DNA of 64,000 nt, from assembly GCF_017356245.1 (NCBI RefSeq), contig NZ_JAFMZZ010000001.1:3595201-3659200 (forward strand), in the 5' to 3' direction. The notes beneath the pieces are model-generated. The model saw nothing but the letters and a program-made list of their open reading frames with translations, was not told where the DNA came from and did no database searches. Source of the stretch: Bordetella petrii. GTDB taxonomy: Bacteria; Pseudomonadota; Gammaproteobacteria; Burkholderiales; Burkholderiaceae_B. The position numbers and the translations under genes are program-made. Every line of letters starts with the position of its first letter. Positions within the stretch are counted from its first letter, which is position 1. Of this stretch, positions 14,163 through 49,585 are shown piece by piece.

Positions 14163-14249
14163 GGTGTCAGGCTCCGCAGGTGCCTGACACCATTGCGTGC
14201 CAAGACTGTCTCAGCCGCAGGATGTCAGGCACCTGCGGAGCCTGACACC
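14163..14249. repeat. Twin-hairpin dispersed repeat, copy 1
   Basis: Left hairpin 14163-14191 (stem GGTGTCAGGC / GCCTGACACC, 9-nt loop), a 29-nt core 14192-14220, and right hairpin 14221-14249. The right arm is the exact reverse complement of the left except for one base at its second position. The core contains GCGTGC, GACTGT and CTCAGC, which align with the cores of the other copies. It lies between two convergent genes and probably serves both as a terminator. TGG follows the right arm, as in most copies. Confidence 0.93.
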
Positions 14250-14273
14250 TGGCAGCAAGCCTGCCCGCCGCGC

Positions 14274-15107
14274 TCAAAAAGGCGAGTCCGGCTTGAAATC
14301 GGGCGGCCGCCGCTCACGCAGCGACTGGATGCCCTCGCGCACGTCGGGTCCGGCGAAGCCCATGAATTCCAGCGCCAGCGAAGCGTCGAAGCTGGGGCCG
14401 GCCAGCCGCAGCCAGTTGTTCAGCGCGTACTTGGTCCAGCGGATGGCCGTCTGCGATCCGTTGGCCAGCTTGCCCGCCACCTCGAATGCCTTGGCGATCA
14501 GTTCGGCTTCGTCCACGCACAGCGATACCAGGCCGATGCGCTCGGCTTCTTCGCCGCTGACGGCTTCGCACAGCAGCAGGTAATACTTGGCCTTGGCCAT
14601 GCCGCACAGCAGCGGCCACACGATGGCCGCATGGTCGCCCGCCGCCACGCCCAGGCGGGTGTGGCCGTCGATGATGCGGGCATCGCGCGCGGCGATCGAC
14701 ACGTCGGCCAGCAGGCCGGCCACCAGCCCCGCCCCCACGGCGGCGCCGTGCATGGCCGACACGATCGGCTTATTGCAGTTGATCACGTTGTAGACCAGGT
14801 CGCGCGCTTCGCGCCATACCCGCGCGCGCACCTGGAAGTCGTCGGCCATCTGCTGCACCAGTTCCAGGTCGCCGCCGCCGGAAAACCCCTTGCCTTCGCC
14901 GCGGATCACCACCACGCGCGTGTCCGGGTCGGTGTCCACGTCGCGCCAGATATCGGCCAGCTCGCGGTGCAACCGCTCGTCGGCGGTGGACAGCTTGCCC
15001 GGCACTCCGCCCCTGGCGCCCATGATGAGCTCCAGGATGCCCTGCGGATGGCGGCGCAGCTTCAGGGCTTGATAGTGCGCATAATGGTCGAGCGATGGTT
15101 CGGACAT
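14274..15107 (-). CDS. Crotonase-family protein with atypical active-site residues
   Basis: 277 residues from the ATG at 15107 ([19 protein letters not shown]). The crotonase fold is clear: [23 protein letters not shown] and [28 protein letters not shown]. Yet the loop that usually holds the first Glu reads [12 protein letters not shown], and the second loop reads [17 protein letters not shown] rather than PEIKLG...GGTQ. Standard water-adding Glu residues are therefore absent, and a different reaction (isomerisation, ring cleavage, decarboxylation or thioester hydrolysis) is plausible. It is a single gene between the repeat on its 3' side and the divergent hydrate-dehydratase gene. Confidence 0.82.
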
Positions 15108-15188
15108 GGTCTGCTCCCGGAAGTGATGCTCAGGCTTTCCGGGCACTATAGTGGATAGCCTTGCCAGCCCGCAGCCCGGAAACCCGCC

Positions 15189-16043
15189 ATGTCCGCCGCC
15201 CCCGCGCCCGCCCCCATTCTCCGCCAGGATCTGCCGGCCCTGTTCGCGCCGCGCCCGGCCGATGCCCACAAGGGCACCTTCGGCACCGTGGCGGTGGTGG
15301 GCGGCGGCGCCGGGATGGCCGGAGCCGCCCTGCTGGCCGCGCGCGCGGCCCTGAAAACCGGCGCCGGCAAGGTGCTGGTGGGCTTTGCCCAGGCCTCATG
15401 CCCGCTGGCGTGCGATCTTCTGCAGCCTGAATTGATGTTGCGCGATGCCGCCAGCCTGTACCAGGCCGGCCTGCCGGTCGATGCCTGGGTGGCCGGTTGC
15501 GGGCTGGGCACCGGCGGCCAGGCGCGGGCCGCGCTGGACGCGCTGTTCGCCCGCCGCGGCGGCGCGCCGCTGGTGCTGGACGCCGACGGCCTGAATCTGC
15601 TGGCCGCCGGCGCGCTGCCCGCCTGGGGCCCGGGGCCCGTGATCCTGACGCCGCATCCGGCCGAGGCCGCGCGGCTGCTGGGCACGGACGCCCAGGCCGT
15701 GCAGGCCGACCGCCCGGCGGCGGCCCGCGCGCTGGCCAGCCGCCATGGCGCCTGGGTGGTGCTCAAGGGTGCCGGCACCCTGGTGTGCCGGCCCGACGGC
15801 CTGTGCCGCCGCAATATCACCGGCAATGCCGGGCTGGCAACGGCCGGCACCGGCGATGTCCTGGCCGGGATGCTGGGCAGCCTGCTCGCCCAGGGCATGG
15901 CGCTGGACCAGGCGGTGGCGGGCGCCGTCTGGCTGCATGGGGCGGCCGCCGACGCCCGGGTGGCGGCGGGCATCGGCCCCATCGGTTTGACGGCCGGCGA
16001 GCTGGCCGACGCCGCCCGACAGTTGCGAAATGGCCACGGATAA
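15189..16043 (+). CDS. nnrD: ADP-dependent (S)-NAD(P)H-hydrate dehydratase
   Basis: 284 residues matching the YjeF C-terminal kinase-like domain as a stand-alone protein. N-terminal [35 protein letters not shown] is followed by [15 protein letters not shown] and the ATP/ADP-site loop [28 protein letters not shown], which carries the catalytic Asp of the N-A-G-T-G-D motif. It dehydrates damaged NADHX/NADPHX back to NAD(P)H using ADP. The epimerase partner (YjeF N-terminal domain) is not in the window. Confidence 0.92.
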
Positions 16044-16056
16044 CCGCCGTTACAAC

Positions 16057-16103
16057 TTATCCACAGATTCATGTTGCATTGCACTTAGGGTTATCCCTAT
16101 AAT
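16057..16103 (+). promoter_or_regulatory. Promoter of the small-protein gene with DnaA box and GGGTTATCCC
   Basis: TTGCAT (16074-16079) and a consensus TATAAT (16098-16103) are 18 nt apart, a strong sigma-70-type promoter for the gene at 16140. A perfect TTATCCACA lies just upstream (16057-16065). GGGTTATCCC (16088-16097) fills the spacer and abuts the -10 box, so a factor bound there would block RNA polymerase. Confidence 0.6.
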
Positions 16104-16139
16104 GGTTTACCCCATGACGAAACGGACTGGAGAGAAACC

Positions 16140-16373
16140 ATGAGCGAACTGACCCTGAACACCAATGCCCGCCTGACCGATGCGCTGGAACGCGACCTGC
16201 TTCGCGGCGCGATGGAAAGCCAACCGAATGCCCAACCCCTGGTGCTGCTGAAGCAGGCCGGTGCCGCGATCGCCCGCGCTGTCGGCGCCTTCGCCGACTA
16301 CGTCGCCGAAGTGCACGAAGCCATGAATCGCGCCCGCGCCGCCAGCGCCCGCTACGCCGGTTCGCAGTGGTAA
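16140..16373 (+). CDS. Small helical protein of unknown function
   Basis: 77 residues (MSELTLNTNARLTD...ARYAGSQW), predicted mostly helical, with an Ala-rich, amphipathic second half (AAIARAVGAFADYVAEVHEAMNRARAA) and no signal peptide or cysteines. A GGAGAG ribosome-binding site precedes the ATG, a strong promoter lies upstream and a strong terminator downstream, so it is a monocistronic, probably well expressed gene. I do not recognise the family. The helical, Ala-rich character would fit a small structural or DNA/protein-binding factor. Confidence 0.75.
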   Translation: MSELTLNTNARLTDALERDLLRGAMESQPNAQPLVLLKQAGAAIARAVGAFADYVAEVHEAMNRARAASARYAGSQW

Positions 16374-16442
16374 TTGCCCTCCGGCTTGCCGCCCTACCCT
16401 GAAAAGGGCCGGGCGGCAAAGCTATACGCGTCTTGCGCGTGC

Positions 16443-16487
16443 CCAAGGCGCCGCACCCCGAAGCGGGGCGCGGCGCCTTGTTGTTTC
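16443..16487 (+). terminator. Rho-independent terminator of the small-protein gene
   Basis: CAAGGCGCCGC and GCGGCGCCTTG form the outer stem, with CCCCG/CGGGG nested inside. TTGTTTC follows. The rest of 16374-16533 holds no open frame that I can support. Confidence 0.8.
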
Positions 16488-16533
16488 TGGCCGCCAGGCC
16501 ATCTTGCTGCGGCGCAATACCTAACTGTGCGCA

Positions 16534-16563
16534 TTGACAACGCACGAAGCGGCTTCCGATAAT
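16534..16563 (+). promoter_or_regulatory. Sigma-70-type promoter of the first peptide-binding-protein gene
   Basis: TTGACA (16534-16539), an 18-nt spacer and GATAAT (16558-16563). The start codon at 16644 gives a leader of about 75 nt. Confidence 0.6.
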
Positions 16564-16643
16564 CGCCCCCTTGTCACGATTGATTGCATCTGACGGCACC
16601 CTGCCGGCAGCCACGCAATCCATCCCGTCGACCCGGAGCCTTC

Positions 16644-18263
16644 ATGAAATTGCGTACTTCCCTGGCCCTGCTGGCGGCCAGCGCCGGCCTGGCCGCCGCC
16701 CCCGCCGTCCTGGCCCAGTCCCTGACCATCGCCCTGTCGTCCGAACCGACCTCTGCCGACCCGCACTATCACAAGCAGACGCAGAACGACGCGTTCGCCG
16801 CCCATGTCTACGACTCGCTGATCTACCGCGGCCCCGACATGAAGCTCAAGCCGGGCCTGGCCACGTCATGGAAGAACCTGGACGACCTGACCTGGGAGCT
16901 GAAGCTGCGCGAAGGCGTGAAGTTCTCGAACGGCGAGCCCTTCACCTCGCAGGACGTGCTGTTCTCGGTGTGCCGCACCCTGAACAACAAGACCAACATC
17001 TCGCAGTCGTACATGACGGTGACCAAGCTGCTGACCGACGTGCAGACGCCCGACGCGCACACGGTCATCCTGAAAACCGCCGAGCCCTTCCCGCTGATGC
17101 CGGCCGAACTGGCGCGGCAGCTGCCCATCATCTGGAACGGCATCGTCGAGCACGGCCCGCTGAAGTTCGCCCCCAAGGAAGGCTGCGGCGTGACCGGCCC
17201 GTGGCCCACGGTGGCCGATTTCAACAACGGCAAAGACGCCATCGGCACCGGCCCGTACAAGCTGAAATCGTACGTGAAGGGCACCGGCATCGAGCTCGAG
17301 CGCAACGAAGGCTACTGGGGCGACAAGCCGCAATGGAAAACGGTGAAATTCGTGCCCGTGCCCAACGCCGGCCCGCGCCTGACCGGCCTGCTGTCGGGCG
17401 ACTTCGACGTCATCGAGAACCCGGCCGCGCGCGACTTGCCGCGCCTGAAGGAAAACGGCAATTTCGGCTACGTGGCCACGCCCTCGACCCGCCTGGTCTT
17501 CTTCCAGCCCGACGTGGGCCGCAACCCCAGCCCGTTCGTCAAGAGCCCCGACGGCAAGAACCCGCTGCAGGACCTGCGCGTGCGCCGTGCCATCAACATG
17601 GCCATCGACCGCAAGACCATCAATGCGCGCATCATGGACGGCCTGGCGACCCCGGCCTACCAGTACATGCCCGACGGCATGTTCGGCGCGCTGCCCAAGG
17701 CGCCCGAGATCAAGTACGACCCGGAAGGTGCCAAGAAGCTGCTGGCCGAGGCCGGCTACCCCGATGGCTTCGAACTGACCCTGTCGTCCACCAACAACCG
17801 CTACGTGAACGACGGCCAGGTGACGCAGGCCGTGGCCCAGTACCTGTCGCGCATCGGCATCAAGACCCACGTCGACGCAATGACCGCCTCGATCTACTTC
17901 CCCAAGCGCGCCAAGCGCGAGTTCAGCTTCGCCATGGGCGGCTGGCCGGCCGAAACCGGCGAAGCGTCGGCGCTGTTCCAGCTGTGGGTCGCCTCGACCG
18001 ACTCGGCCCGCAGCCTGGGCACCAGCAACTACGGCGGCTTCTCGAACGCCGAGTTCGACAAGGTGTACGAGCAGGCCATCGTGACGGTCGACCCGGAAAA
18101 GCGCGAGAAGCTGCTGCAGCAGTCCACGCAGATCGCCCTGGACAACCTGCCGCTGATTCCGCTGCACTTCGAAAGCAGCATCTGGGCGTTCCGCAAGGGC
18201 CTCACCTACGAAGGCCGGCGCGACCAGTACACGCTGGCCATGTCGGTGCATTCGGCGAAGTAA
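16644..18263 (+). CDS. Peptide-type ABC transporter substrate-binding protein, copy A (SBP family 5)
   Basis: 539 residues from the ATG at 16644 (MKLRTSLALLAASAGLAAAPAVLAQS), a Sec signal peptide cleaved after VLA. Family-5 signatures follow: EPTSADPHYH, PGLATSWKNLDDLTWELKLREGVKFSNGEPF and GTGPYKLKSYVKGTGIELERNEGYWG. Two cysteines, 110 and 181 (FSVCRTLNN and EGCGVTGPWP), are conserved in the second copy at 20653 and may form a disulfide. It delivers a peptide or a peptide-like solute to a Dpp-type permease. It stands apart from that permease operon, behind its own promoter and ending at a twin-hairpin repeat, yet by eye about two thirds of its residues match copy B. Confidence 0.94.
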   Translation: MKLRTSLALLAASAGLAAAPAVLAQSLTIALSSEPTSADPHYHKQTQNDAFAAHVYDSLIYRGPDMKLKPGLATSWKNLDDLTWELKLREGVKFSNGEPFTSQDVLFSVCRTLNNKTNISQSYMTVTKLLTDVQTPDAHTVILKTAEPFPLMPAELARQLPIIWNGIVEHGPLKFAPKEGCGVTGPWPTVADFNNGKDAIGTGPYKLKSYVKGTGIELERNEGYWGDKPQWKTVKFVPVPNAGPRLTGLLSGDFDVIENPAARDLPRLKENGNFGYVATPSTRLVFFQPDVGRNPSPFVKSPDGKNPLQDLRVRRAINMAIDRKTINARIMDGLATPAYQYMPDGMFGALPKAPEIKYDPEGAKKLLAEAGYPDGFELTLSSTNNRYVNDGQVTQAVAQYLSRIGIKTHVDAMTASIYFPKRAKREFSFAMGGWPAETGEASALFQLWVASTDSARSLGTSNYGGFSNAEFDKVYEQAIVTVDPEKREKLLQQSTQIALDNLPLIPLHFESSIWAFRKGLTYEGRRDQYTLAMSVHSAK

Positions 18264-18287
18264 GCGCCGCCGGGCAGATCGGGGCAA

Positions 18288-18379
18288 GGTGTCCGACTCC
18301 CGGCAGGGTGTCGGACACCGAAGTGTGCGCAGGCCGCCTCAACAGAACGGTGTCTGACACCCTGCGGGAGTCAGACACC
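18288..18379. repeat. Twin-hairpin dispersed repeat, copy 2
   Basis: Left hairpin 18288-18319 (stem GGTGTCCGAC / GTCGGACACC, 12-nt loop), a 29-nt core 18320-18348, and right hairpin 18349-18379 (stem GGTGTCTGAC / GTCAGACACC, 11-nt loop). The core begins GAAGTGTGC and ends TCAACAGAAC, matching the reverse complement of the core in copy 5. A CTTTTCTTTTTC run follows the right arm. The element lies between the binding-protein gene and the convergent LysR gene. Confidence 0.93.
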
Positions 18380-18393
18380 TTTTCTTTTTCCGT

Positions 18394-19302
18394 CTACGGC
18401 AAAGTCGCCTCGACTTCGTCGATGCGCGCCTTCAGGTGTTCGATGAAGCGCGCCACGCCGGGCGGCAGCAGCCGCCCTTCCATGGTCTGGATCTGCAGAT
18501 TGCGCGATTGCAGTTCGGCACTGACCACGGGCCGCGCCACCAGGCCGTCCTGCGCCAGGCGCCAGGCCACCGAAATATAGCCGGCGAACATCACGGCGTT
18601 GGAATGGCGCACGAAGCCATGCAGCGCCGGTGAATAATTCGAGATCAGCGCCGCCTGCAGCTGCATGTCTTCCAGCGCGCAGGTGCGGTTGAGCAGGCGC
18701 CGCGCCGTGCTTTTGTCGTCGGTCAGCGCCAGCGGATAGGCCAGCACGTCTTCCAGGCACAGGCGGCTGCGTCCGGCCAGCGGGTGGGTGGCCGCCATCA
18801 CCGCATAGACCGGCGCGCGCCAGGAGTGCAGCACCGCCACGCCCTGGGCCGGCTCGACGTTGAACGACACCGACACGTCGATATCGCCGCTGGCGATCTG
18901 CCGCATGGACTCGGGAGGCGTCAGCACGTGCAGCGAGAACCGCGTGCGCGGGTGCTGCTGCCGGAAATCCACCATGGCCACCGGCAGGAAGCCCTGCGCG
19001 GGCCCTTCCGACGCCCCCACCCGGATCTCGTCATGCGGCGTGCCTTGCAGGCCGGCGATCTGCCTCAGCACTTCATCCGATTCCAGCAGGGTGCGCCGCG
19101 CATGCGCCAGCAGCAGCCGCCCGGCCTGGCTCAGGGCCATGCCGCGCGGCGCCCGCTCGAACAGCGGCGCGCCCACCTCTTCCTCCAGGCGGGCGATCTG
19201 GCGGCTGATGGCCGATACCGCCACGTGCAACTGCTTCGAGGCGCCGCTCAGACTGCCGGCCTGGGCCACCGCCACGAAGTACTTCAGCGAAATTCCATGC
19301 AT
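18394..19302 (-). CDS. LysR-family transcriptional regulator
   Basis: 302 residues from the ATG at 19302. The N-terminal winged helix-turn-helix reads LKYFVAVAQAGSLSGASKQLHVAVSAISRQIARLEEEVGAPLFERAPRGMALSQAGR (given here only as the recognisable stretch), and the rest is the periplasmic-binding-protein-like effector domain. It is placed between the two binding-protein genes and transcribed away from the aspartoacylase-like gene, so it most likely controls the peptide/hydrolase operon starting at 19610 and perhaps copy A. An inverted repeat at 19355-19371 lies in the divergent gap. Confidence 0.92.
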   Translation of the reverse strand: MHGISLKYFVAVAQAGSLSGASKQLHVAVSAISRQIARLEEEVGAPLFERAPRGMALSQAGRLLLAHARRTLLESDEVLRQIAGLQGTPHDEIRVGASEGPAQGFLPVAMVDFRQQHPRTRFSLHVLTPPESMRQIASGDIDVSVSFNVEPAQGVAVLHSWRAPVYAVMAATHPLAGRSRLCLEDVLAYPLALTDDKSTARRLLNRTCALEDMQLQAALISNYSPALHGFVRHSNAVMFAGYISVAWRLAQDGLVARPVVSAELQSRNLQIQTMEGRLLPPGVARFIEHLKARIDEVEATLP

Positions 19303-19354
19303 GGTGTCGTACCCATCCCGTGGGGCCGGCCGGGGGCATGGCCCATTGCGTTGC

Positions 19355-19371
19355 TTTGCCAAAAAGGCAAA
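19355..19371. promoter_or_regulatory. Candidate LysR binding site
   Basis: TTTGCC-AAAAA-GGCAAA is a perfect 6-bp inverted repeat with a 5-nt centre and contains the T-N11-A spacing typical of LysR-type sites. It lies 53 bp upstream of the LysR start. The remaining 240 bp to the next gene (19610) hold a short AT-rich patch near 19375-19400, likely the promoter zone, and no supported gene. Confidence 0.5.
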
Positions 19372-19609
19372 TAGTGTCTCAAATATTCTAATTGCCGAGA
19401 AAGCTGACCCGCTCCTAGAATCTGCCTCAAGATAAGAATCGGCATCGCGCCAGCCTCGCAGCTGGCGGCTCGCCCAGGGGGAAATGTGTTCCTGGCTGCC
19501 AAACGGCCCGCCGTCGCCCGGCGGCCCCGCCTCCTGCGCGCGCTGCGCTGCGTGCCGCCGCGCCCTGCGCCGCCGGCGTGCCGATGTGTCCCTTGTTTGT
19601 GGAGCGCCC

Positions 19610-20593
19610 ATGTCTACGCCTGATGCCGCAGCCCCGCTGCGCCCGTTTGAACTCGCCTGTCCGGATTTGTCGGCCGAGCGCCTGGGCAACACCGACACGC
19701 CGGGCGTGTGGCACTTCGATTCGGGCGCGCCGGGCAGGCACGTGATGCTGACGGCGCTGATCCACGGCAACGAACTGTGCGGCGCCTGGGCCCTGAAAAC
19801 ACTGCTGGCCAGCGGACTGCGGCCGCGCCATGGCGCGCTGACACTGGCGTTCTGCAACCTGGCGGCCTTCGACCGCTTCGACCCCGCCAACTACCTGCCG
19901 GCGCGCTTTGTCGACGAAGACATGAACCGGGTCTGGAGCGACGACAAGCTGGCCGACCCGTCCTCCCAGGAACGCCGGCGCGCCGCCGCGCTGCGGCCCT
20001 GGGTGGCCCGGGCCGACTGGCTGATGGACTTCCATTCGATGAGCAATTCCGACGTGCCGCTGCAGCTCACCGGCCTGCAGCCACGCAACATCGAACTGGC
20101 GCTGCAGCTGGGCACGCCGGCCAACATCATCGCCGACGCCGGCCATGCCGCCGGCGTGCGCATGCGCGACTACGGCCGCTTCGGCGCCGGCGGCGGCGAC
20201 GGCACGCGCTCGCTGCTGATCGAATGCGGCTTTCACGGCGCGCCGCAGGCGCGCGACGTGGCGATAGACCAGATGGCCCGCTTCCTGGTGGCTGCCGGCA
20301 CGTTCGCGCGCGACGACCTGCCCGCCGATTGGTTCGCGCCCGATGCGCCGCGCCAGCAGGCGCTGCGCGTCACGCATGCCATTGCCGCCCAGAGCGCCGA
20401 CGTGCGCTTCGCGCAACGCTGGCGCGGGCTGGAACAGCTGCCGCGGGCCGGCACGCTGCTGGGCTGGAATGCCGGCGAACCCTTCGTCACCCCGTACGAC
20501 GACTGCGTGCTGATCATGCCGTCGCTGGCCAATGTGCGCCCGGGCGTGACCGTGCTGCGCCTGGCCCAGCCCATCGCCCAGGCCGGCGGCTGA
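19610..20593 (+). CDS. Succinylglutamate desuccinylase/aspartoacylase-family zinc hydrolase
   Basis: 327 residues from the ATG at 19610, preceded by GGAG. The zinc-binding H-x-x-E is in TALIHGNELCGAWAL. The third ligand His lies in WLMDFHSMSNSD, and the catalytic Glu in LLIECGFHGAPQ. These are the motifs of the M14-related AstE/ASPA family, which removes acyl groups from N-acyl amino acids such as N-succinylglutamate or N-acetylaspartate. The C-terminal beta domain follows (AGTLLGWNAGEPFVTPYDDCVLIMPS). It is the first gene of the run that continues with binding protein B and the permease, suggesting that the imported solute is an N-acylated amino acid or peptide (inference). Confidence 0.88.
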   Translation: MSTPDAAAPLRPFELACPDLSAERLGNTDTPGVWHFDSGAPGRHVMLTALIHGNELCGAWALKTLLASGLRPRHGALTLAFCNLAAFDRFDPANYLPARFVDEDMNRVWSDDKLADPSSQERRRAAALRPWVARADWLMDFHSMSNSDVPLQLTGLQPRNIELALQLGTPANIIADAGHAAGVRMRDYGRFGAGGGDGTRSLLIECGFHGAPQARDVAIDQMARFLVAAGTFARDDLPADWFAPDAPRQQALRVTHAIAAQSADVRFAQRWRGLEQLPRAGTLLGWNAGEPFVTPYDDCVLIMPSLANVRPGVTVLRLAQPIAQAGG

Positions 20594-20652
20594 GCCTCCC
20601 TGATTTCGCGGTACCGACAACGAAAGCCCTACGCTCCCAGGAGAAAACATCC

Positions 20653-22275
20653 ATGCACGCTTCCTGCATCCGCGCGGCGGCCCTGGCCGCGCTGTTCGGC
20701 CTGGCCGCCGGCGCGCACGCCCAGTCGCTGAAAATCGCGCTGGCATCCGAGCCCACGGCCATGGACCCGCACTACCACCAGGCCACGCCCAACAACGCGA
20801 TGGCTTCGCAGATCTTCGAGACCCTGGTGGCGCAGGACGCCAAGATGAGCCTGATCCCCGGACTGGCCACGTCGTGGAAAGCGCTGGACGACACCACCTG
20901 GGAATTCAAGCTGCGCGAAGGCGTGAAGTTCTCGAACGGCCAGCCCCTGACCCCGCAGGACGTGATCTTCACCTTCTGCCGCGTGATGAACAATGAAGAA
21001 TCCATCGCCGGTTCGTATGCCGCGGTGGTGCAGAAATTCGCCAGCGTCGAAGCCACCGATGCCCACACGCTGCGCATCAAGACACTCAAGCCCTACCCGC
21101 TGCTGGCCAACGACCTGACCCGCACCGGCATTCTGTGGAGCGGCATCGTCGAGCACGGCCCCATCAGCTTCGACCTGGACAAGAAGTGCGGCGTAACCGG
21201 CCCCTGGCCCAGGGTGGCCGACTTCAATAGCGGCAAGAACACCATCGGCACCGGCCCCTACAAGTTCAAATCGTATGTGAAAGGCACCGGCATCGAGCTG
21301 GAACGCAACGACGGCTACTGGGGCAGCAAGCCCGAATGGCGCGACGTCGCCTTCGTGCCGGTGCCCAATGCCGGCCCGCGTCTGACCGGCCTGCTGGCCG
21401 GCGACTTCGACGTGATCGAAAGCCCCGCCGCCCGCGACGTGCAGCGCATCAAGAGCACGCCGGGCTTCGGCTATGTGGTCACGCCCTCGGTGCGCGTGGT
21501 GTACTTCCAGTTCGACGTAGGCCGCGACGCCACCCCGCTGGTCAAGGCGCCCAACGGCAAGAACCCGCTGCAGGACGTGCGCGTGCGGCGCGCCATCAGC
21601 ATGGCCATCGACCGCAAGACCATCGTGGCGCGCATCATGGACGGCATGGCCACGCCGGCCAACCAGTTCCTGCCCGACGGCATGTTCGGCACCCTGCCGC
21701 ATCCGCCGGAACTGAAATACGACCCCGCCGGCGCCAAAAAACTGCTGGCCGAGGCCGGCTACCCCGATGGCTTCGAAATGACGCTGTCGTCCACCAACGA
21801 CCGCTACATCAATGACGGCCAGATCACCCAGGCCGTGGCGCAGTACCTGTCGCGCGTGGGCATCAAGGCGCATGTCGACGCCATGACCCGCTCGGTGTAC
21901 TTCCCCAAGCGCGCCAAGCGCGAATTCAGCTTCGCCATGGGCGGCTGGTCGTCGGAAACCGGCGAGGCCTCGTCGTTCCTGCAGTACTGGGTAACCTCGT
22001 ACGCTCCCGAACTGGGCATGGGCACCAGCAACTACGGCCGCTACTCCAACCCCGAGCTGGACAAGATCTTCCGCCAGGCCGTCACCACGGTGGACGACGC
22101 CAAGCGGGAAAAACTGCTGCAGCAGGCCCTGACCATCGCCCTGGCCGACCTGCCCAGCATCCCGCTGCATTTCGAAAGCAGCATCTGGGCGTTCCGCAAG
22201 GGGCTGACCTACGAAGGCCGCGCGGACCAGTACACTCTCGCCTCGTCAGTCAAATCGGTCAAATCGGCCCCATAG
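20653..22275 (+). CDS. Peptide-type ABC transporter substrate-binding protein, copy B (SBP family 5)
   Basis: 540 residues from the ATG at 20653, with a CCAGGAGAAAA ribosome-binding site. The signal peptide is MHASCIRAAALAALFGLAAGAHA, then QSLKIALASEPTAMDPHYH. It is closely related to copy A along its whole length, including the paired cysteines (109 in FTFCRVMNN, 179 in KKCGVTGPWP) and the identical block HFESSIWAFRKGLTYEGR near the C-terminus. This copy lies in the operon with the permease and ATPase genes, so it is the presumed main receptor. The differences between the two copies probably tune ligand range. Confidence 0.95.
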   Translation: MHASCIRAAALAALFGLAAGAHAQSLKIALASEPTAMDPHYHQATPNNAMASQIFETLVAQDAKMSLIPGLATSWKALDDTTWEFKLREGVKFSNGQPLTPQDVIFTFCRVMNNEESIAGSYAAVVQKFASVEATDAHTLRIKTLKPYPLLANDLTRTGILWSGIVEHGPISFDLDKKCGVTGPWPRVADFNSGKNTIGTGPYKFKSYVKGTGIELERNDGYWGSKPEWRDVAFVPVPNAGPRLTGLLAGDFDVIESPAARDVQRIKSTPGFGYVVTPSVRVVYFQFDVGRDATPLVKAPNGKNPLQDVRVRRAISMAIDRKTIVARIMDGMATPANQFLPDGMFGTLPHPPELKYDPAGAKKLLAEAGYPDGFEMTLSSTNDRYINDGQITQAVAQYLSRVGIKAHVDAMTRSVYFPKRAKREFSFAMGGWSSETGEASSFLQYWVTSYAPELGMGTSNYGRYSNPELDKIFRQAVTTVDDAKREKLLQQALTIALADLPSIPLHFESSIWAFRKGLTYEGRADQYTLASSVKSVKSAP

Positions 22276-22317
22276 GGCCGGCCGGTTGTTTTCGCAAGAC
22301 CCCAAGGAACGCACAAC

Positions 22318-28316: not shown

Positions 28317-28345
28317 GGTGTCAGGCACCTGCGGAGCCTGACACC
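28317..28345. repeat. Solo hairpin of the dispersed-repeat family, copy 3
   Basis: One arm only: GGTGTCAGGC, a 9-nt loop, GCCTGACACC. It differs from the right arm of copy 1 at one base and is followed by TGGC. It lies between the M20 peptidase and the convergent rep gene, with no core or partner arm. Confidence 0.9.
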
Positions 28346-40979: not shown

Positions 40980-41065
40980 TCAAATTGTAAGAAAACGGTA
41001 CTGCTAGGAATGCAAGAAAACCTTGCGCCCCGGGCGCGGGCGGCCTGCCCGCGCCAGGAATAGGG

Positions 41066-41947: not shown

Positions 41948-42017
41948 TTGAACCCTACCCTGTTTGCTATGTGGCCGGATCTTGCGAGCCGGCCGTTTAC
42001 ATGATCTTTTTAAGCAG

Positions 42018-42446: not shown

Positions 42447-42526
42447 CAGGCTTCCCCGCTCTTGCGGCAAAGACAGGCGCGGCAGGCTTACCGCGTGTTT
42501 TTATCCCGCAAGCGTCAAACTCGTAG

Positions 42527-42556
42527 AGTATAGCGTGATTCGTTTTGGTCGGGCAA
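42527..42556 (-). promoter_or_regulatory. Promoter of the ATP synthase operon
   Basis: On the minus strand, TTGCCC (42556-42551) and TATACT (42532-42527) are separated by 18 nt, about 80 bp upstream of the atpI start. Confidence 0.6.
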
Positions 42557-42562
42557 ATGAAG

Positions 42563-42594
42563 AAACCGACGCCGGATCAGTCCGGCGCCGGTTT
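42563..42594. terminator. Bidirectional hairpin after the DUF1254 gene
   Basis: AAACCG-A-CGCCGGA, a 4-nt loop TCAG, then TCCGGCG-C-CGGTTT: a long stem with one mismatch and short U-tracts on both sides. It lies 34 bp beyond the DUF1254 stop and just upstream of the atp promoter, insulating the two. Confidence 0.65.
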
Positions 42595-42627
42595 TGCAAC
42601 ACGGCCGCAAGGCCGCCCCGGGCGGGG

Positions 42628-44190
42628 TCAGTCTTCTTTGACTGGCGGCGGCGCCCAATGGCCATCGAGGGCGATGTCTTTGGGCCAGTACAGCCGCATG
42701 TTGAGCATGAAGTTGCCCTGGTGCGGCGCGGGCAGCCAGTTGGCCGCCTTGCGCGGGCCCGGGTCATCGCGCTGGATGTAGATGTCCAGCGAGCCGTCGG
42801 CGTTGTATCGCAGGGGATCGGTGCTGCGCAGCGCGTAACGGCCGATGGAGTTGGCGGCCAGGCCCTGATCGGCGTTGTACAGGATCAGGGACCACGACGC
42901 ATTGACCGGCGGCAATTGCCCCTTGTCGAAATGCAGCACGTACTCTTCGTCGCTGCGCAGCAGCTCGCCGTCGTCATCGATGGTGGTGACCGGGTACAGC
43001 GCGTCCTGCGGCGTGTTGGCGCCCAGCCCGGCATAGGCGATGGCGGCGCGGCGGGTGTAATCGGTGCCGTAGGTGCCGATGCCATGCAGCACCGTGCTCC
43101 AGCCGTTCATGGGCTTGCCCAACTGGGCAACCGCATCGGCGATGCGGCGCCCCGCCACGGGACGCGCGTCGGCCAGCGCCTGCTGCACCACCGGGTCGAG
43201 GCGGCTGTACGAAAAGGGCTGCGGGCCCGCCAGGCCGATGCGGCGCATGCGCGACAGGATCGCATTGTCGTTGGCGTGCGGCGGATTGGCGGCCAGCAGT
43301 TCCGAGAACACCGTGAAGAACGTGGCCGGGTCCATGGCGGCCACCTGCTGGCCGGGCGAGCCCTGGGCGTTCCAGGTAACCGACGAGACCGGGGGCGGCA
43401 GCATCGGGGCCGCGCCCACCGGCACGTAGCCGGGGCTGGCCGGGCTTTGCGGCCAGGTGGCCGGCTTGGCCGCGCCGCGGCGCGGCGGGGTGACCAGCGC
43501 GGGCGGCGGCGCCGCCATCGGCGAGGCAGTCATGCCGGCCTGAAACTGGTTGACGGCGCCATATTCGTTGGGCCCGCCAGTCTGGATGCGGGCGATCAGC
43601 CATCCCATGCCGGTGGGGCTGCGCACGACATCCGCGCCGATCGGCGCGGTGCCCTGCCAGTGCGGGCCGACGATGGCGAAGGTTTGCTCGCCATTGCCGG
43701 TGGTGCGGGTGCCGCGCGAGGCGAACTCGTCGGTCCACATGTCGAGCAGCGACAGCGCGTAGTAGCGGCCGCCCGAGGCGGGCACGCGCACGATCAGCGG
43801 CTGGCGCGAAACGTCGAACCAGAGGCTGGAATACAGCATGTCGGTGCTGGGCCAGGCCACGTCGGTGGCGCCGGGATCCGGAAACACCGTGCGGTGGCCG
43901 AACTGATTCATGGGCGCCTTGCCCGCCAGCGGTGTCTGCACCTGGGTCGAGGCCCGCCGCGTCGCCTCCATCAGCACCATCGGATAAGCGTAGAGGTAGG
44001 CGTCGACCGCGATGTCGCGCAATTCTTCGGCGGTAACGGCGGGGCTGGACGCGGCCGTCGGGGTTTCGGACACCAGCCGCATCGAGGGCCGCGGCTGGGC
44101 CAGGGCGGCGCAGGCAAAGCCGGCGGCCAGCGCGCCGGCCAGCAGGGCCCGGGGCCAGCGGCGTGTGAGGGGAAATGGACGGTTATGCAT
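42628..44190 (-). CDS. Exported DUF1254/DUF1214 domain protein
   Basis: 520 residues from the ATG at 44190. The signal peptide is MHNRPFPLTRRWPRALLAGALAAGFACAALA. DUF1254 follows (ELRDIAVDAYLYAYPMVLMEATRR, WPSTDMLYSSLWFDVSRQPLIVRVPASGGRYYALSLLDMWTDEFA, split motifs). A Pro/Ala-rich insert around residues 240-290 precedes the C-terminal DUF1214 part (SWSLILYNADQGLAANSIGRYALRS, QRDDPGPRKAANWLPAP). The family is widespread, periplasmic and functionally uncharacterised. The gene stands alone between the atp operon and a crotonase gene. Confidence 0.85.
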   Translation of the reverse strand: MHNRPFPLTRRWPRALLAGALAAGFACAALAQPRPSMRLVSETPTAASSPAVTAEELRDIAVDAYLYAYPMVLMEATRRASTQVQTPLAGKAPMNQFGHRTVFPDPGATDVAWPSTDMLYSSLWFDVSRQPLIVRVPASGGRYYALSLLDMWTDEFASRGTRTTGNGEQTFAIVGPHWQGTAPIGADVVRSPTGMGWLIARIQTGGPNEYGAVNQFQAGMTASPMAAPPPALVTPPRRGAAKPATWPQSPASPGYVPVGAAPMLPPPVSSVTWNAQGSPGQQVAAMDPATFFTVFSELLAANPPHANDNAILSRMRRIGLAGPQPFSYSRLDPVVQQALADARPVAGRRIADAVAQLGKPMNGWSTVLHGIGTYGTDYTRRAAIAYAGLGANTPQDALYPVTTIDDDGELLRSDEEYVLHFDKGQLPPVNASWSLILYNADQGLAANSIGRYALRSTDPLRYNADGSLDIYIQRDDPGPRKAANWLPAPHQGNFMLNMRLYWPKDIALDGHWAPPPVKED

Positions 44191-44387
44191 GGGGGGCTCC
44201 TTGTTCGTTGTTGGCAAACGAGCCAGCCATCCCGCCCGGAAGGGGATGGCCTTTTTCGGCATGACGCTGCTTCAGGATAGGCGCGGAAGCTGCAACAAGG
44301 TGAGATTTAAAGGTTACAGCCCGAAACCAACCGTCCATATTCCCCGCGCAATCCGTTTTTGTTCGCCGGGAGCCCGCGTAACAAGCG

Positions 44388-45164
44388 TTACTTGTGCCGG
44401 AAAGCCGGCGGGCGCTTTTCCATGAAGGCGGCCATGCCTTCTTTCTGGTCTTCGGTGCCGAACAGCGAATGGAACACGCGGCGCTCGAACAGCAGCCCTT
44501 CGTTCAGCGACGACTCGAAGGCGCGGTTGACGCATTCCTTGGCCATCATGACCGAGGGCAGCGACATCGAGGCAATGACAGTGGCGGCCTCGAGGGCTTC
44601 GTCCATCAGCTTGTCGGCCGGGACCACGCGCGATACCAGCCCGGCCCGCTCGGCTTCTTCGGCGCCCATCATGCGGGCGGTGAGGGCCAGGTCCATGGCC
44701 TTGGCCTTGCCCACCGCGCGGGGCAGGCGCTGCGTGCCGCCGGCGCCGGGAATGACGCCCAGCTTGATTTCCGGCTGGCCGAACCGGGCGGTGTCGGCGG
44801 CGATGATGATGTCGCACATCATGGCGAGCTCGCAGCCGCCGCCCAGGGCGTAGCCGGACACGGCCGCGATGACGGGCTTGCGGATGCGCTTGAGGGTTTC
44901 CCAGTTGCGGGTGATGTATTCGCTGCCATAGACGTCCATATAAGACCAATCTTTCATGGCGCCGATGTCTGCGCCGGCGGCGAACGCCTTCTCGCTGCCC
45001 GTGATGACCACCGCGCCGATGCCGTCGTCGGCTTCGAAAGCCAGCAGCGCGGCGCCCAGCTCATTCATGAGCTGGTCATTGAGCGCATTGAGCGCCTTGG
45101 GGCGGTTCAGCGTCAGCAGCCCGACGCGTCCACGGGTTTCGACCAGCACAAACGATTCGCTCAT
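44388..45164 (-). CDS. Enoyl-CoA hydratase (crotonase family)
   Basis: 258 residues with both catalytic Glu positions intact: [22 protein letters not shown] and [27 protein letters not shown]. The oxyanion-hole segment is [14 protein letters not shown]. It therefore looks like a true hydratase, adding water to trans-2-enoyl-CoA, of the short-chain FadB/EchA type. It is a single gene, divergent from the M61 peptidase with a 46-bp gap. Confidence 0.94.
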
Positions 45165-45210
45165 GGGGATGTCTCCTGGAAAAATAAATGTAGGTCAGTA
45201 AGATAGCGCA

Positions 45211-46974
45211 ATGGACACCCCCGTAATTTACCGCCTAGAGCCCAGCGACCCCGCCGGCCATCGCTACCGCATCACCCTGACCGTGCCGCAGCCGGACCCC
45301 GACGGCCAGCGGCTGGCATTGCCGGCCTGGATTCCCGGCAGCTACCTGATCCGCGATTTCTCGCGCCAGGTCGAGACCTTGCAGGCACGGTCGGCCGGCC
45401 GCCCGGTCGCCGTCACCAAGCTCGACAACCACACCTGGCAAGCCGCGCCCTGCGCCGGCCCGCTGCAGATCGACTACACCGTCTACGCCTGGGACCTGTC
45501 CGTGCGCGGTGCGCACCTGGACGAGGCTCACGGCTTTTTCAACGGCACCAGTGTGTTCCTGCGGGTAGAGGGCCGCGAAAACGCGCCCTGCCTGCTGGAC
45601 CTGGCCCCGCCGCGCGGCATTGCCGGCTGGAAGGTCTACACCAGCCTGCCCGAGGCGCGCGGCCACGCCGGCGCGGCCCGCCGGCACGGCTTCGGCCTGT
45701 ACCGGGCCCCCGACTACGACGCGCTGATCGACCACCCCGTGGAAATGGGCACGCCCCAGGTGGCCCGCTTTACCGCGCACGGCGCCGAGCACGAACTGGT
45801 CTTCACCGGCGTGGCGCCCCGCCTCGACCTGAGCCGCATCGCCGCCGACGCGCGCCGCATCTGCGAAGCCCAGATCGCCTTCTTCGAGCCGCGCAGCAAG
45901 CGTGCGCCCTTCCTGGACAGCAGCGACCGCTATGTATTCATGACCATGGTGGTGGGCGACGGGCACGGTGGCCTGGAACACCGCGCCAGCACCGCGCTGA
46001 TGGCGTCGCGCAAAGACCTGCCGGTGCTGGGCCAGCAAGGCCAGGGCGAGGGCTATCGCGGCTTTCTGGGGCTGGTCAGCCATGAATACTTCCATACCTG
46101 GAACGTCAAGCGCATCAAGCCGGCCGCCTTCGCGCCCTACCATCTGCAGCAGCCCGACCTGACGCGGCTGCTGTGGGTGTTCGAGGGCTTCACGTCGTAC
46201 TACGACGACCTGATGCTGCTGCGCGCGGGCGCCATCGGCCTGACCGACTACCTGCGCCTGCTGGCCAAAACGATTACCAGCGTGGCGCGTTCGCCGGGGC
46301 GCCGCAAGCAGTCGGTGGCCGAAAGCTCGTTCGATGCCTGGACCCGCTACTACAAGCAGGACGAGAACTCGCCCAACGCGCTGGTCAGCTACTACACCAA
46401 GGGCGCGCTGGTGGCGCTGGGGCTGGACCTGACCATCCGGCGCGAGTCCGGCGGCGCGCGCTCGCTGGACGATGTCATGCGGCTGCTGTGGCAGCGCTAC
46501 GGCCGCGATTTCTATCGCGGCAAGGCGCAGGGCCTGCCCGAAGACGCCCTGCCCGCGCTGGTCCGCGAAGCCACCGGCGTGGATGTGCGGCGCTTCGTGG
46601 CGCGCCACGCCTACGGCACGGCCGACGTGCCGCTGGCCGAATTGCTGGCGCCGCACGGCGTCGGCCTGCACTGGAAGCCCACGGTCAACATCCCGTCGCT
46701 GGATGTGCGCACGCGCAAACAGGGCGATGCCCTGGCGCTGGCCACGGTGCTCGAGGGCGGCGCGGCCCACAAAGGCGGCCTGTCGGCCGGCGATGTGCTG
46801 GTGGCGGTCGACGGGCTGCGCGTGGATGCGCCGGCCGGGCTGGAGCTGCTGCTGGCGCAATACCGCGCCGGCGACCGCGTGACGGTGCACGTGTTCCGCC
46901 GCGACGAACTGCGCGCCTTCACTGTGCGGCTGGCCGCGCCGGCGGCGCTGGACTGCGTGCTGTCGGTAAAGTAG
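45211..46974 (+). CDS. M61-family glycyl aminopeptidase-like metallopeptidase with PDZ domain
   Basis: 587 residues. An N-terminal beta domain (DPAGHRYRITLTVPQP, LPAWIPGSYLIRDFSRQVE) precedes the zinc site SHEYFHTWNVKRIKP (H-E-x-x-H, with the downstream Glu in WVFEGFTSYYDD). A C-terminal PDZ domain starts around GDALALATVLEGGAAHKGGLSAGDVLVAVDG. There is no signal peptide, so cytoplasmic. The family includes Sphingomonas glycyl aminopeptidase, which prefers N-terminal Gly/Ala. A twin-hairpin repeat follows 10 bp after its stop. Confidence 0.93.
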   Translation: MDTPVIYRLEPSDPAGHRYRITLTVPQPDPDGQRLALPAWIPGSYLIRDFSRQVETLQARSAGRPVAVTKLDNHTWQAAPCAGPLQIDYTVYAWDLSVRGAHLDEAHGFFNGTSVFLRVEGRENAPCLLDLAPPRGIAGWKVYTSLPEARGHAGAARRHGFGLYRAPDYDALIDHPVEMGTPQVARFTAHGAEHELVFTGVAPRLDLSRIAADARRICEAQIAFFEPRSKRAPFLDSSDRYVFMTMVVGDGHGGLEHRASTALMASRKDLPVLGQQGQGEGYRGFLGLVSHEYFHTWNVKRIKPAAFAPYHLQQPDLTRLLWVFEGFTSYYDDLMLLRAGAIGLTDYLRLLAKTITSVARSPGRRKQSVAESSFDAWTRYYKQDENSPNALVSYYTKGALVALGLDLTIRRESGGARSLDDVMRLLWQRYGRDFYRGKAQGLPEDALPALVREATGVDVRRFVARHAYGTADVPLAELLAPHGVGLHWKPTVNIPSLDVRTRKQGDALALATVLEGGAAHKGGLSAGDVLVAVDGLRVDAPAGLELLLAQYRAGDRVTVHVFRRDELRAFTVRLAAPAALDCVLSVK

Positions 46975-46984
46975 CGGCCGCCCA

Positions 46985-47075
46985 GGTGTCAGGCTCCGCC
47001 AGGTGCCTGACACCGCAGTACGCCGCGGCCGTCTCAGTCCCTACGGTGTCCGATACCCTGCGGGAGTCGGACACC
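46985..47075. repeat. Twin-hairpin dispersed repeat, copy 4 (mixed-arm form)
   Basis: Left hairpin 46985-47014 (GGTGTCAGGC / GCCTGACACC, 10-nt loop), a 30-nt core 47015-47044 containing GTCTCAG, and right hairpin 47045-47075 (GGTGTCCGAT / GTCGGACACC, one G-T wobble). The two arms belong to the two different stem sequence types seen separately in copies 1 and 2. CCAGG before and CCTGG after extend the terminal inverted repeat. It lies between the M61 gene and the convergent oxidoreductase gene. Confidence 0.93.
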
Positions 47076-47104
47076 TGGCAACAGCCCGGGATGGTTCGCC
47101 ATCT

Positions 47105-48001
47105 TCAGCCGGCGCCGCGCTCCCAGTGGCGCTGGATGGCCTTGGCGGCCACCACGCCATCGGCCAGCGAAGTCACCACGCAGGGGTGCATGCGGTGGGC
47201 GACCTCGCCGATGCCGTAGACGCCGGACACGCTGGCCTCGGCCGTGGCGGCATCGGTGCGTATATACCCGCGCGGGTCGCGCTGCAGGCCCAGGCCGTCG
47301 GCAAACGCGGCCTGCGGCTCCCAGCCGTAGAACACCAGAATCACGTCATAGGCCTGCCCATCCACCGTGCGCGCCGCGGGATCGACCCGGTAGGGGCCGA
47401 CCCGCACGCCGTCGCGGCCGGCCCGCGACACCCATTGCTGCTGGGCGCGCACGCTGCGGGCGTACAGATGCACGCTGCGCGCGCCCCGGTTGCGCACATA
47501 GACGAAGTTTTCATAGGCGTTGTCGCCGCCGCCCAGCACGGCCACCGACAGGCCGGTGTAGTCGTGCGCCATGATGGACGAGCCCGGCCCCACGAACACG
47601 CCGGGCCAGGCGGCGTCGGCGGGGTGGTCCGGCAGGCCGCGCGCGCGCACGCCCGAGGCGATTACCAGGGCCCGCCCCCGGACAGTGGCGCCGGCCCCGC
47701 CGGCGTCCAGATCGACTTCGAAACCGCCCTCGGCGCGCCGCGCCTGCCGCGCGGCCGTGCCCAGGCGCGCCGGTACACCGGCGGCCCGCACGCTGCTGGC
47801 GATATTGGCGGCCACCTGCTGGCCGGTAACGCCGGGCAGCACGGCGATCCAATCGTCGGCGAACGGATTGTCGTTGCCCAGCCCGCCCAGGCGCGGCCCG
47901 GCCTCGACCAGCAGCGGCGCCAGGCCCAGCCGGGCCAGCCAGATGGCGCACGAGGCCCCGGCCGGGCCGCCGCCCACGATCACTGCGTCGTATTGCTGCA
48001 T
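47105..48001 (-). CDS. FAD-dependent NAD(P) oxidoreductase, thioredoxin-reductase-like fold without the CxxC
   Basis: 298 residues from the ATG at 48001. The FAD site is DAVIVGGGPAGASCAIWLARLG, the NAD site VAVLGGGDNAYENFVYVRNRG, and the C-terminal FAD-contact segment SGVYGIGEVAHRMHPCVVTSLADGVVAA. The overall pattern is a low-molecular-weight thioredoxin reductase, yet the redox C-x-x-C between the two halves is missing, as in ferredoxin-NADP reductases of this fold. The electron acceptor is unknown. It is divergent from folB with about 110 bp between. Confidence 0.82.
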   Translation of the reverse strand: MQQYDAVIVGGGPAGASCAIWLARLGLAPLLVEAGPRLGGLGNDNPFADDWIAVLPGVTGQQVAANIASSVRAAGVPARLGTAARQARRAEGGFEVDLDAGGAGATVRGRALVIASGVRARGLPDHPADAAWPGVFVGPGSSIMAHDYTGLSVAVLGGGDNAYENFVYVRNRGARSVHLYARSVRAQQQWVSRAGRDGVRVGPYRVDPAARTVDGQAYDVILVFYGWEPQAAFADGLGLQRDPRGYIRTDAATAEASVSGVYGIGEVAHRMHPCVVTSLADGVVAAKAIQRHWERGAG

Positions 48002-48114
48002 AGTCTGTCGTATTCCGTGTGGCAATGCCGTGCGCCGCGCGGGCGCATCAGGCGGATTGTAGCCAGGGGCCCCACCCGCCTTACAATTCCGGTTCTCTCT
48101 TCCAGGTATTCATC

Positions 48115-48483
48115 ATGCCTACACGCCGCATCATCCTTTCCGGACTGGCGCTGGATGCCCGCATCGGCATTCTCGAACACGAGCGCAGGGCCACCCAGCC
48201 GCTGCACATCGATGCCGAGTTCGACGTGGACATCACCCGCAGCGTCGATGACCACGACATCCACAGCGTGCTCGACTACCGGCGGCTGCGCGAGGCCATT
48301 GTCGAAGAATGCACCCAGGCGCACGTGAACCTGATCGAAACGCTGACCGAACGGGTCGCGGCCCGCCTGCTGCGCGATTTCGACGAGGTACGCGCGCTGC
48401 GGCTGCGCATCAGCAAGCCCATGGCGTTCTCGGACTGCGCCGCAGTGGGCGTGGAAATCCAGCTCAATCGCCAGGCCGGCTGA
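48115..48483 (+). CDS. folB: Dihydroneopterin aldolase
   Basis: 122 residues from the ATG at 48115. The sequence [35 protein letters not shown] matches FolB (G-I-x-x-x-E near the N-terminus), as does [35 protein letters not shown], carrying the pterin-anchoring Glu. The C-terminal [10 protein letters not shown] supplies the catalytic Lys. It cleaves dihydroneopterin to the hydroxymethyl-pterin in folate synthesis. ttcA follows after eight bases. Confidence 0.93.
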
Positions 48484-48491
48484 CTCTGACC

Positions 48492-49466
48492 ATGCAAGAC
48501 CTTATCGACACCCCCATCGCCGCGCGCACGCCGGCCGAAGAAAAAATCCGCCACGAAGGCAACAAGCTGTCCAAGCGGCTGGCGCGCGAAACCACCCGCG
48601 CCATCGCCGACTACAACATGATCGAAGCGGGCGACCGGGTCATGGTGTGCCTGTCGGGCGGCAAGGATTCCTACGCGCTGCTGGACATCCTGCTCAGCCT
48701 GCGCAAGCGCGCGCCGTTCTCGTTCGACATCGTGGCGGTCAACCTGGACCAGAAGCAGCCCGGCTTTCCGCCCGATGTGCTGCCCGCCTACCTGACGTCG
48801 CTGGGCGTGCCTTTCCATATCGAGACGCAGGACACGTATTCGATCGTGACCCGCGTGATACCCGAAGGCAAGACCATGTGCTCGCTGTGCTCGCGGCTGC
48901 GGCGCGGCATTCTGTACCGCGTGGCGGGCGAACTGGGCGCCACCAAGATCGCCCTGGGCCACCACCGCGACGACATCCTGGCCACGTTCTTCCTGAACCT
49001 GTTCTACGGCGGCAAGGCCAAGGCCATGCCGCCCAAGCTGGTCTCGGACGACGGCCGCCACACCGTGATCCGGCCGCTGGCCTACGTGCCCGAACACGAC
49101 CTGGTGGCGTATGCCCGGTTCAAGCAGTTTCCGATCATTCCGTGCAATCTGTGCGGCTCGCAGGAAAACCTGAAGCGCCAGGAAGTGGCGCGCATGATCC
49201 GCGACTGGGACCGCCAGCACCCGGGCCGTTCCTGGAACGTATTCAATGCCCTGTCGCGCGTCGTGCCATCGCACCTGATGGACCGCGACCTGTTCGACTT
49301 CGCGGGGCTGAAGCCGTCGGGCGTGCCGGACGCCAACGGCGACACGGCGTTCGATCCGGTCGATCCGGAAGATCCGCAAGCCGAAGCGGGCGGCGCCTGT
49401 GCCGACGGCCCTGCCGGCGGCGACTCGGCCATGACGGAACAGAAAGTGGTGTTTGCCAGACTGTAG
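48492..49466 (+). CDS. ttcA: tRNA 2-thiocytidine(32) synthetase TtcA
   Basis: 324 residues. The PP-loop is [18 protein letters not shown]. The cysteine pairs are [12 protein letters not shown] and [12 protein letters not shown], which ligate the 4Fe-4S cluster, and [19 protein letters not shown] is also a family signature. It installs the 2-thio group on cytidine 32 of certain tRNAs. The last 40 residues or so are a low-complexity Asp/Glu/Pro/Gly-rich tail beyond the usual end. A twin-hairpin repeat lies about 32 bp downstream. Confidence 0.95.
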
Positions 49467-49498
49467 GCCCGCGGCCGCCAGCTGCCTGGCCGGGGCCA

Positions 49499-49585
49499 GG
49501 TGCCTGACTCCGAAGGTGTCAGACACCGTGCTGTTGAAACAGTCGTTGCACACTTCGGTGTCTGACACCTTCGGGGTCAGACACC
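49499..49585. repeat. Twin-hairpin dispersed repeat, copy 5
   Basis: Left hairpin 49499-49527 (GGTGCCTGAC / GTCAGACACC, one mismatch), a 29-nt core 49528-49556, and right hairpin 49557-49585 (GGTGTCTGAC / GTCAGACACC). The core's reverse complement begins GAAGTGTGC and contains GACTGT and TCAACAGC, matching copy 2 in the opposite orientation. CCA precedes and TGGCAA follows. It lies between ttcA and the convergent dehydrogenase gene. Confidence 0.93.

Follow-up and report, generated by a model that had tools for sequence, protein, structure and literature searches.

Introduction

Inverted pairs of repetitive extragenic palindromic (REP) sequences, the REPINs, were reportedly described by Bertels and Rainey in 2011. 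The REP-associated tyrosine transposases (RAYTs) are HUH single-tyrosine transposases related to those of IS200/IS605. Here we analyse a 64,000-nucleotide stretch of a Bordetella petrii genome (contig NZ_JAFMZZ010000001.1, positions 3,595,201 to 3,659,200; referred to as a whole as the window), which holds four copies of an element made of two hairpins around a short core. We conclude that this element is very probably a REPIN, in which two inverted REP hairpins and a short core form a non-autonomous unit mobilised in trans by a RAYT.

In the passages of the literature cited here, REPINs and bacterial interspersed mosaic elements (BIMEs) consist of inverted REPs with a short spacer, occur intergenically in high copy number and are accompanied by a RAYT gene flanked by the same REPs (PMC8049555, PMC6006769), and REPIN spacers are highly diverse (PMC8049555). 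Published RAYTs cut single-stranded DNA near the REP at CT, or in one system at CT or CA, and recognise unpaired features, namely a loop, bulge or mismatch (PMC8266576). The TIRYT transposases of TIRtrons are associated with terminal inverted repeats (TIRs) of consensus GGGGWSAS, and some TIR families are moderately abundant and partly self-complementary (PMC3733652). Within Bordetella, the Bor repeats (Petrillo 2006, PMC1590033) are stem-loops of 26–30 bp, likened to E. coli REPs and situated near coding regions, and the intergenic Bor-1 (2008, PMC2267715) was represented by a 93-bp model with 128 (78) copies and a 117-bp model with 196 (92). BRE (Hot 2011, PMC3110155), of about 90 bp, occurs in Bordetella and other betaproteobacteria, mainly between genes and with tandem copies.

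Paired REP hairpins form a high-copy element

An earlier note on this DNA had drawn attention to four loci with a hairpin–core–hairpin arrangement, and all four were found at the positions given there, each consisting of a REP, a core and an inverted REP (29+29+29, 32+29+31, 30+30+31 and 29+29+29 nt). Copy 1 comprises a first REP on the plus strand (14163..14191) with a T.T mismatch at stem position 11, a core of 29 nt (14192..14220, plus strand) and an inverted second REP (14221..14249, minus strand) with an A.A mismatch. In copy 2, a REP of 32 nt (18288..18319, plus strand) is followed by a 29-nt core (18320..18348, plus strand) and an inverted REP of 31 nt (18349..18379, minus strand). The first REP of copy 3, with a GGTGTCAGGC arm (46985..47014, plus strand, 30 nt), precedes a 30-nt core (47015..47044, plus strand) and an inverted second REP of 31 nt with a different stem, GGTGTCCGAT/GTCGGACACC (47045..47075, minus strand). 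Copy 4 has the opposite orientation: its core of 29 nt lies on the minus strand (49528..49556), so that the low-coordinate REP (49499..49527, plus strand, 29 nt) is the second along the core and the high-coordinate REP (49557..49585, minus strand, 29 nt) the first. The cores align with one another, with copy 4 reversed, as had been claimed. We additionally found a single REP in the A.A orientation between convergent open reading frames (28317..28345, minus strand), absent from the earlier note.

In the window, each REP is 29–32 nt long and consists of a 10-bp stem, GGTGTCnGnC/GnCnGACACC, followed by one mismatch, two or three further pairs and a small loop. The stems pair along their length save for one broken pair each in the second REP of copy 1 (GATG), the second REP of copy 3 and one REP of copy 4 (one of ten pairs). 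Because the unit recurs in inverted form as the second REP, a mismatch that is T.T in the first reads A.A there; this polarity was seen in 17 of the 26 elements in which both REPs retain at least eight of ten pairs. Doublets are preceded by CA and followed by TG (C in 26, A in 28, T in 26 and G in 26 of 31 elements), while the inner flanks of the REPs are mainly G and C. Core length, counted over a systematic sample of the genome together with the window, is nearly constant, at 29 nt in 23 and 28–30 nt in 27 of 31 elements. The window holds 20 occurrences of the GGTGTCNGNC string, whereas shuffled sequence averages 3.3.

A covariance model (R1) was built on five copies, the four of the window and one more from the same genome, G000. 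Such a scan had been named beforehand as the check on the family, and it returned further copies as well as covarying stems, so that neither of the contrary outcomes foreseen, an isolated set of copies or stems that do not covary, occurred. For each genome 150 candidates were scored, which makes the high values minimum estimates, and a place may count once per strand. G000 gave at least 150 rows (weakest listed E-value 1.1e-4, with at least four rows duplicating a listed place on its other strand), in line with the large dispersed family that the note had expected; relatives gave at least 150 (G171), at least 148 (the sister genome, G123), at least 146 (G141), at least 130 (G053), 90 (G156) and 63 (G081), and two genomes of the same genus, G103 and G015, gave none. 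The systematic sample of G000, 40 stretches of 20 kb (800 kb) over the two largest contigs read, held 30 places, two of them overlapping, corresponding to about 37 per Mb or about 185 per genome. A simple hairpin finder recovered 54 REPs from this sample compared to 5 from the reversed sequence, and 56 compared to 2 from 800 kb of G123. Applied to 200 genomes of the family under stricter filtering (22 candidates scored per genome), R1 matched in ten, seven of them of the genus and the others G024, G092 and G137. Tandem REP arrays are frequent in RAYT-bearing relatives (loci L299, L301, L304 and L306 of G123; site 3 of G053, L168, with about 12 REP units at one site); the window copies are single doublets.

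These data speak against the explanation that the hairpins arose by chance or belong to a conserved but immobile regulatory RNA. Covarying stems would be expected of such an RNA, yet copies resemble each other closely within the genome (copy 3 has own-genome copies at 94–95% identity), their cores align, sister species differ in presence and absence, and no Rfam family matches the element at gathering score, the window yielding one tRNA only. We consider this explanation highly improbable.

The single hairpin is the conserved unit

The two hairpins repeat one asymmetric unit in opposite orientations, and the doublets therefore double as long inverted repeats, with arms that are 92% complementary in copy 1 and 94% in copy 4. 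For single-stranded DNA, the best fold is a single long hairpin in copies 1, 2 and 4 but a pair of hairpins in copy 3; RNAalifold likewise prefers the long form. The two structures were compared in 31 elements of G000, window included, and in 29 of G123, leaving out fragments and overlaps (3 of 34 and 4 of 33 places, respectively, by hand count).

The covariation claimed in the earlier note was borne out. Among the 104 of 120 REPs from both genomes that keep at least eight of ten stem pairs, both partners change at stem position 7 (T-A 50, A-T 38, C-G 6) and at position 9 (G-C 57, A-T 43). With both REPs held to at least eight local pairs (26 of 31 elements in G000 and 19 of 29 in G123), pairing was 93.9% within and 83.6% between hairpins. 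Since this filter favours local pairing, the test was repeated unfiltered, with ends set by the terminal hexamers alone, all elements kept and stem positions 7–10 scored, and gave the same answer: 89.9% within versus 75.0% between hairpins in G000 (n = 31) and 83.6% versus 67.2% in G123 (n = 29). Where the two arms differ, the values were 85.1% versus 63.1% (G000, n = 21) and 78.3% versus 53.3% (G123, n = 19). One long hairpin is thus disfavoured as the selected structure, local pairs being better kept where arms differ, and the conserved unit is the single hairpin rather than a fold of the whole doublet.

RAYT genes flanked by the same REPs in related genomes

Genes with a Y1_Tnp domain are present in six of eight relatives of the same genus, and all six loci (L063–L068) carry the element's REPs on either side; the two relatives without such a gene, G103 and G015, are the two without an R1 match. 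The G123 protein passes the NCBIfam model REP_Tyr_transpos (NF047646) with 86 bits at a cut-off of 80, and the relatives' RAYTs contain the motifs NHVH (HUH) and RYIELNPVR (tyrosine). Y1_Tnp is the sole domain found in the cognate RAYT (P0001). The eight closest of 28 named loci returned with this query belong to Bordetella petrii, Bordetella sp. BOR01, Bordetella genomosp. 2 and 7, and Achromobacter. The gene occupies one common locus in G123, G171 and G053 and other loci in G156, G141 and G081; the G053 copy (G053:C4, L068) has one internal stop, although the REP arrays of G053 are large.

Whereas the earlier note knew of no named family with this layout, the layout is that of REPINs and BIMEs: an inverted REP pair with a short spacer, intergenic and in high copy number, with RAYT genes flanked by the same REPs in six of six RAYT-bearing relatives. 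A RAYT is likely the mobiliser of these REPs. The element departs from the described REPINs in its near-constant and partly conserved core, in the T.T/A.A polarity of its mismatch, in having no GT[AG]G foot, and in a host genome that has no detected RAYT. It falls outside the GTAG-tagged REP superfamily. The residues that contact GTAG are changed in the element's RAYT, as far as can be read from an alignment of the G123 protein to E. coli TnpAREP (4er8), which places E, S and D at Q95, E100 and R104 (residue numbers as given in the relevant passage of PMC6006769; positions by reading of the alignment).

Element content differs between orthologous sites

Element content at orthologous intergenic sites varies among species. 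The element is absent from site 1 in G053 and G103, from site 2 in G156, G103 and G015, from site 3 in G123, and from site 4 in G053 and G156. The suggestion that the whole unit moves as a block is supported in part by these occupied and empty sites and by one clear inversion, the G156 doublet at site 1, in which the core is inverted relative to copy 1 while the outer flanks match. A second case is weaker: at site 4, G123 has a doublet with the opposite core orientation to copy 4, twice in a local duplication, and its flanks match near the feet only, so that separate insertions are possible. Between G000 and G123, 14 aligned blocks cover about 126 kb of the window's side, and of the 13 gaps between them 11 were read; REP material was present in one genome or both for 8 of these.

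From these features, a mechanism can be proposed. When the region becomes single-stranded, each REP would fold into its 10-bp stem with the T.T mismatch (A.A in the inverted REP) and two or three more pairs above it; the RAYT would read the folded hairpin and its polarity, cut each REP at its outer foot, where the conserved CA is the putative cut site, and the freed doublet would be joined into another site, with copies persisting chiefly just downstream of genes. The conserved CA foot and the mismatch fit the general RAYT scheme without the GTAG tag.

Several observations weigh against this identification. No GT[AG]G was found at the hairpin foot, the outer flanks being CA and TG, and, in contrast to the E. 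coli bulge, a mismatch introduced into the stem reduced cleavage in two group 3 systems, in the part of PMC8266576 concerned. At the orthologous sites compared, none of the junctions allowed a target duplication, a target rule or a cut site to be read cleanly; the junction comparison proposed in the earlier note thus yielded sites with and without the element, with any target change unreadable. Outside the genus, repeats and RAYT are loosely linked: G092 and G137 have 6 and 1 R1 matches without a Y1_Tnp gene or strong RAYT match, and conversely RAYTs of 49–53% identity outside the genus (G181, G187, G132) occur in genomes without an R1 match. In the window genome itself, the cognate-RAYT query found only a degenerate relative next to gltB, and its REPs show no decay relative to those of G123, either in density (67.5 versus 70 per Mb) or in stem pairs per REP (9.24 versus 8.88 of ten).

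The window genome appears to have lost its RAYT

A search of G000 for Y1_Tnp gave no match. Because no cognate RAYT was detected there, mobilisation by a RAYT is inferred from the relatives. At the locus used by G123, G171 and G053, the flanks are 183 nt apart in G000, compared to 1449 nt including the RAYT in G123; the 183-nt interval contains a truncated REP besides two others, of which one has a broken stem pair, and its cores can still be recognised. The same locus is 73 nt long in G156, 31 nt in G081 and 93 nt in G015, in each case without a REP, and 199 nt in G141, with a doublet. In a tree of 2.6 kb of locus flanks, rooted at the midpoint, G103 and G015 split from the other seven with full support, the sole strongly supported split; the RAYT tree was not used for placement, as it has two very long branches and a partial G053 row.

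On the simplest reading, the window lineage appears to have lost its RAYT, and its repeat population would since have been immobile. The passages of PMC6006769 and PMC3733652 note genomes of other species that carry REPs without a RAYT. The absence of decay implies that the loss is recent, that selection or another enzyme maintains the REPs, or that the RAYT lies in an assembly gap. We regard it as fairly unlikely that G000 still has a RAYT, elsewhere in its sequence or in a gap of the assembly, and that its population is therefore not orphaned. The assembly is in 14 contigs, REP arrays flanking RAYT genes may hinder assembly, and the gene sits elsewhere in G156, G141 and G081; however, the assembly is 99.84% complete, both protein queries were negative for a cognate enzyme, and G000 is contiguous and RAYT-less at the locus that G123, G171 and G053 share. 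If the RAYT was lost, the window species offers a recent natural loss next to a RAYT-bearing sister, and the pair, with equal repeat density, would allow REPIN populations to be compared with and without their enzyme. RAYT loss and gain are named as an issue outside its main study in the passage on the published model (PMC8049555).

Elements lie mostly just downstream of genes

We next compared the positions of elements with gene calls from a codon-usage script. Among 30 classifiable elements (one of the 31 lies at a stretch edge), 18 lie in convergent, 12 in co-directional and none in divergent spacers, against 69, 322 and 104, respectively, of 495 background spacers (p 6e-9 and 8e-4, elements treated as independent). 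All five sites of the window, the four copies and the single REP, are between convergent genes, the placement of the single REP being judged from the table of open reading frames. By hand count, 26 of 30 elements overlap the 3' end of a predicted gene or sit at most 40 nt from it.

This placement, with none in a divergent spacer, together with hairpins that are stable when folded and seven T after a single REP elsewhere (L002), would suit an RNA-level element under selection, either a bidirectional terminator or an mRNA 3'-end stabiliser, whose mobility is incidental or past. But copy 2 alone among the 31 elements has a run of at least four T within 10 nt on either outer side, and a terminator scan of 46800–49800 called neither copy 3 nor copy 4. 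Moreover, such a role leaves the conserved core, the inverted pair and the REPs around RAYT genes unexplained. An intrinsic terminator was accordingly rejected as the main identity, and we judge the broader RNA-level reading unlikely; a role in termination or stabilisation can be compatible with a REPIN as an addition to that identity.

Relation to terminal inverted repeats and to described Bordetella repeats

In sister genera, the genes of related transposases sit between plain GGTGTCAGAC-bearing inverted repeats or between GGGGTCAGACCCC palindromes. RAYT relatives of 51–53% identity in G181 and G187 have GGTGTCAGACT-bearing inverted repeats at both ends, and a 39% identical relative in G024 has GGGGTCAGACCCC palindromes on its flanks. 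The GGTGTCAGACT-bearing repeats around RAYT relatives of sister genera at L069 (2754-2840 and 3734-3864, with several copies per side) and L070 (2806 and 3632) are a possible ancestor state of the palindromic REP. The usual REP arm, GGTGTCAG, is one position off GGGGWSAS, and GGGGTCAG variants occur. Because sister-genus transposases are flanked by repeats close to the TIR consensus, the element, on these sequence comparisons, leans to the TIR-type group.

Its chance of consisting of palindromised TIRs that belong to TIRYT-type transposases (RAYT group 1, subclass 2.1), and not of REPs as in the classical RAYT groups 2 and 3, is nearly even. The inverted repeats at both ends of the G181 and G187 genes and the altered GTAG-contact residues would agree with such an origin, as would the G024 palindromes, which match the consensus published in the passage of PMC3733652; among the features of the TIRtrons described there, a gene within plain inverted repeats recurs in relatives, and a GGGGWSAS-like repeat arm may be shared. 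In contrast, no helix-turn-helix (HTH) domain was found in the cognate RAYT, whereas all subclass 2.1 TIRYT examples have one in the part of PMC6006769 that treats them, and that subclass is described there as lacking REP-like sequences, unlike the palindromic high-copy doublets seen here.

More tentatively, and with rather less than even confidence, we propose that the element represents a GTAG-less REPIN class of its own, with mismatch polarity, a CA foot and a short RAYT whose ancestors were TIR-type (group 1) transposases; plain TIRs would have given rise to palindromes and these to the high-copy doublet. If true, such a class would bridge TIRtrons and REPtrons. RAYT recognition is known from GTAG-tagged systems in the passages of PMC8266576, and a tagless REPIN with altered contact residues would provide an independent test of what a RAYT reads.

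Among described Bordetella repeats, Bor and Bor-1 resemble the window element in length, number and place, as compared by description only, and on these grounds may be the same element; the passages on them link no RAYT (PMC1590033, PMC2267715). BRE resembles it in length, intergenic position and tandem copies; it differs in number (1–29 copies per genome, 8–22 in Bordetella) and in that no paired hairpins are described in the passages of PMC3110155. Compared by description only, it is probably something other than the window element. A literature search with 10–13-base strings of the element gave nothing relevant, judged by title for part of the results, and among the results listed for RAYT or REPIN in Bordetella and Achromobacter none named such an element with a RAYT.

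A degenerate relative beside gltB and a further inverted repeat

The degenerate relative noted above is a RAYT-derived protein of 231 aa encoded on the minus strand at G000:C4:918810-919502 (L107, L077), which lacks the catalytic residues: in 120 listed of 2828 homologues, both HUH histidines are replaced and the tyrosine is changed to tryptophan. Matches occur in 153 of 200 family genomes and 37 of 43 genera, ten of the genomes matching only weakly, at 26–34% identity, and gltB accompanied the gene in all 30 loci checked. The gene's dN/dS was 0.009–0.056 in five comparisons (six of eight rows, with L113 and L114 left out). Judged by these sequence data, the protein has the appearance of a transposase that was domesticated and is kept under strong purifying selection. 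A link between this gene and REPs was rejected, as pattern matches in other genera look like coding chance (13 loci) and G103 and G015 carry the gene without an R1 match. Elsewhere in the window, a 33-nt inverted repeat with a 5-nt spacer and A/T runs (7419-7489) is possibly a bidirectional terminator.

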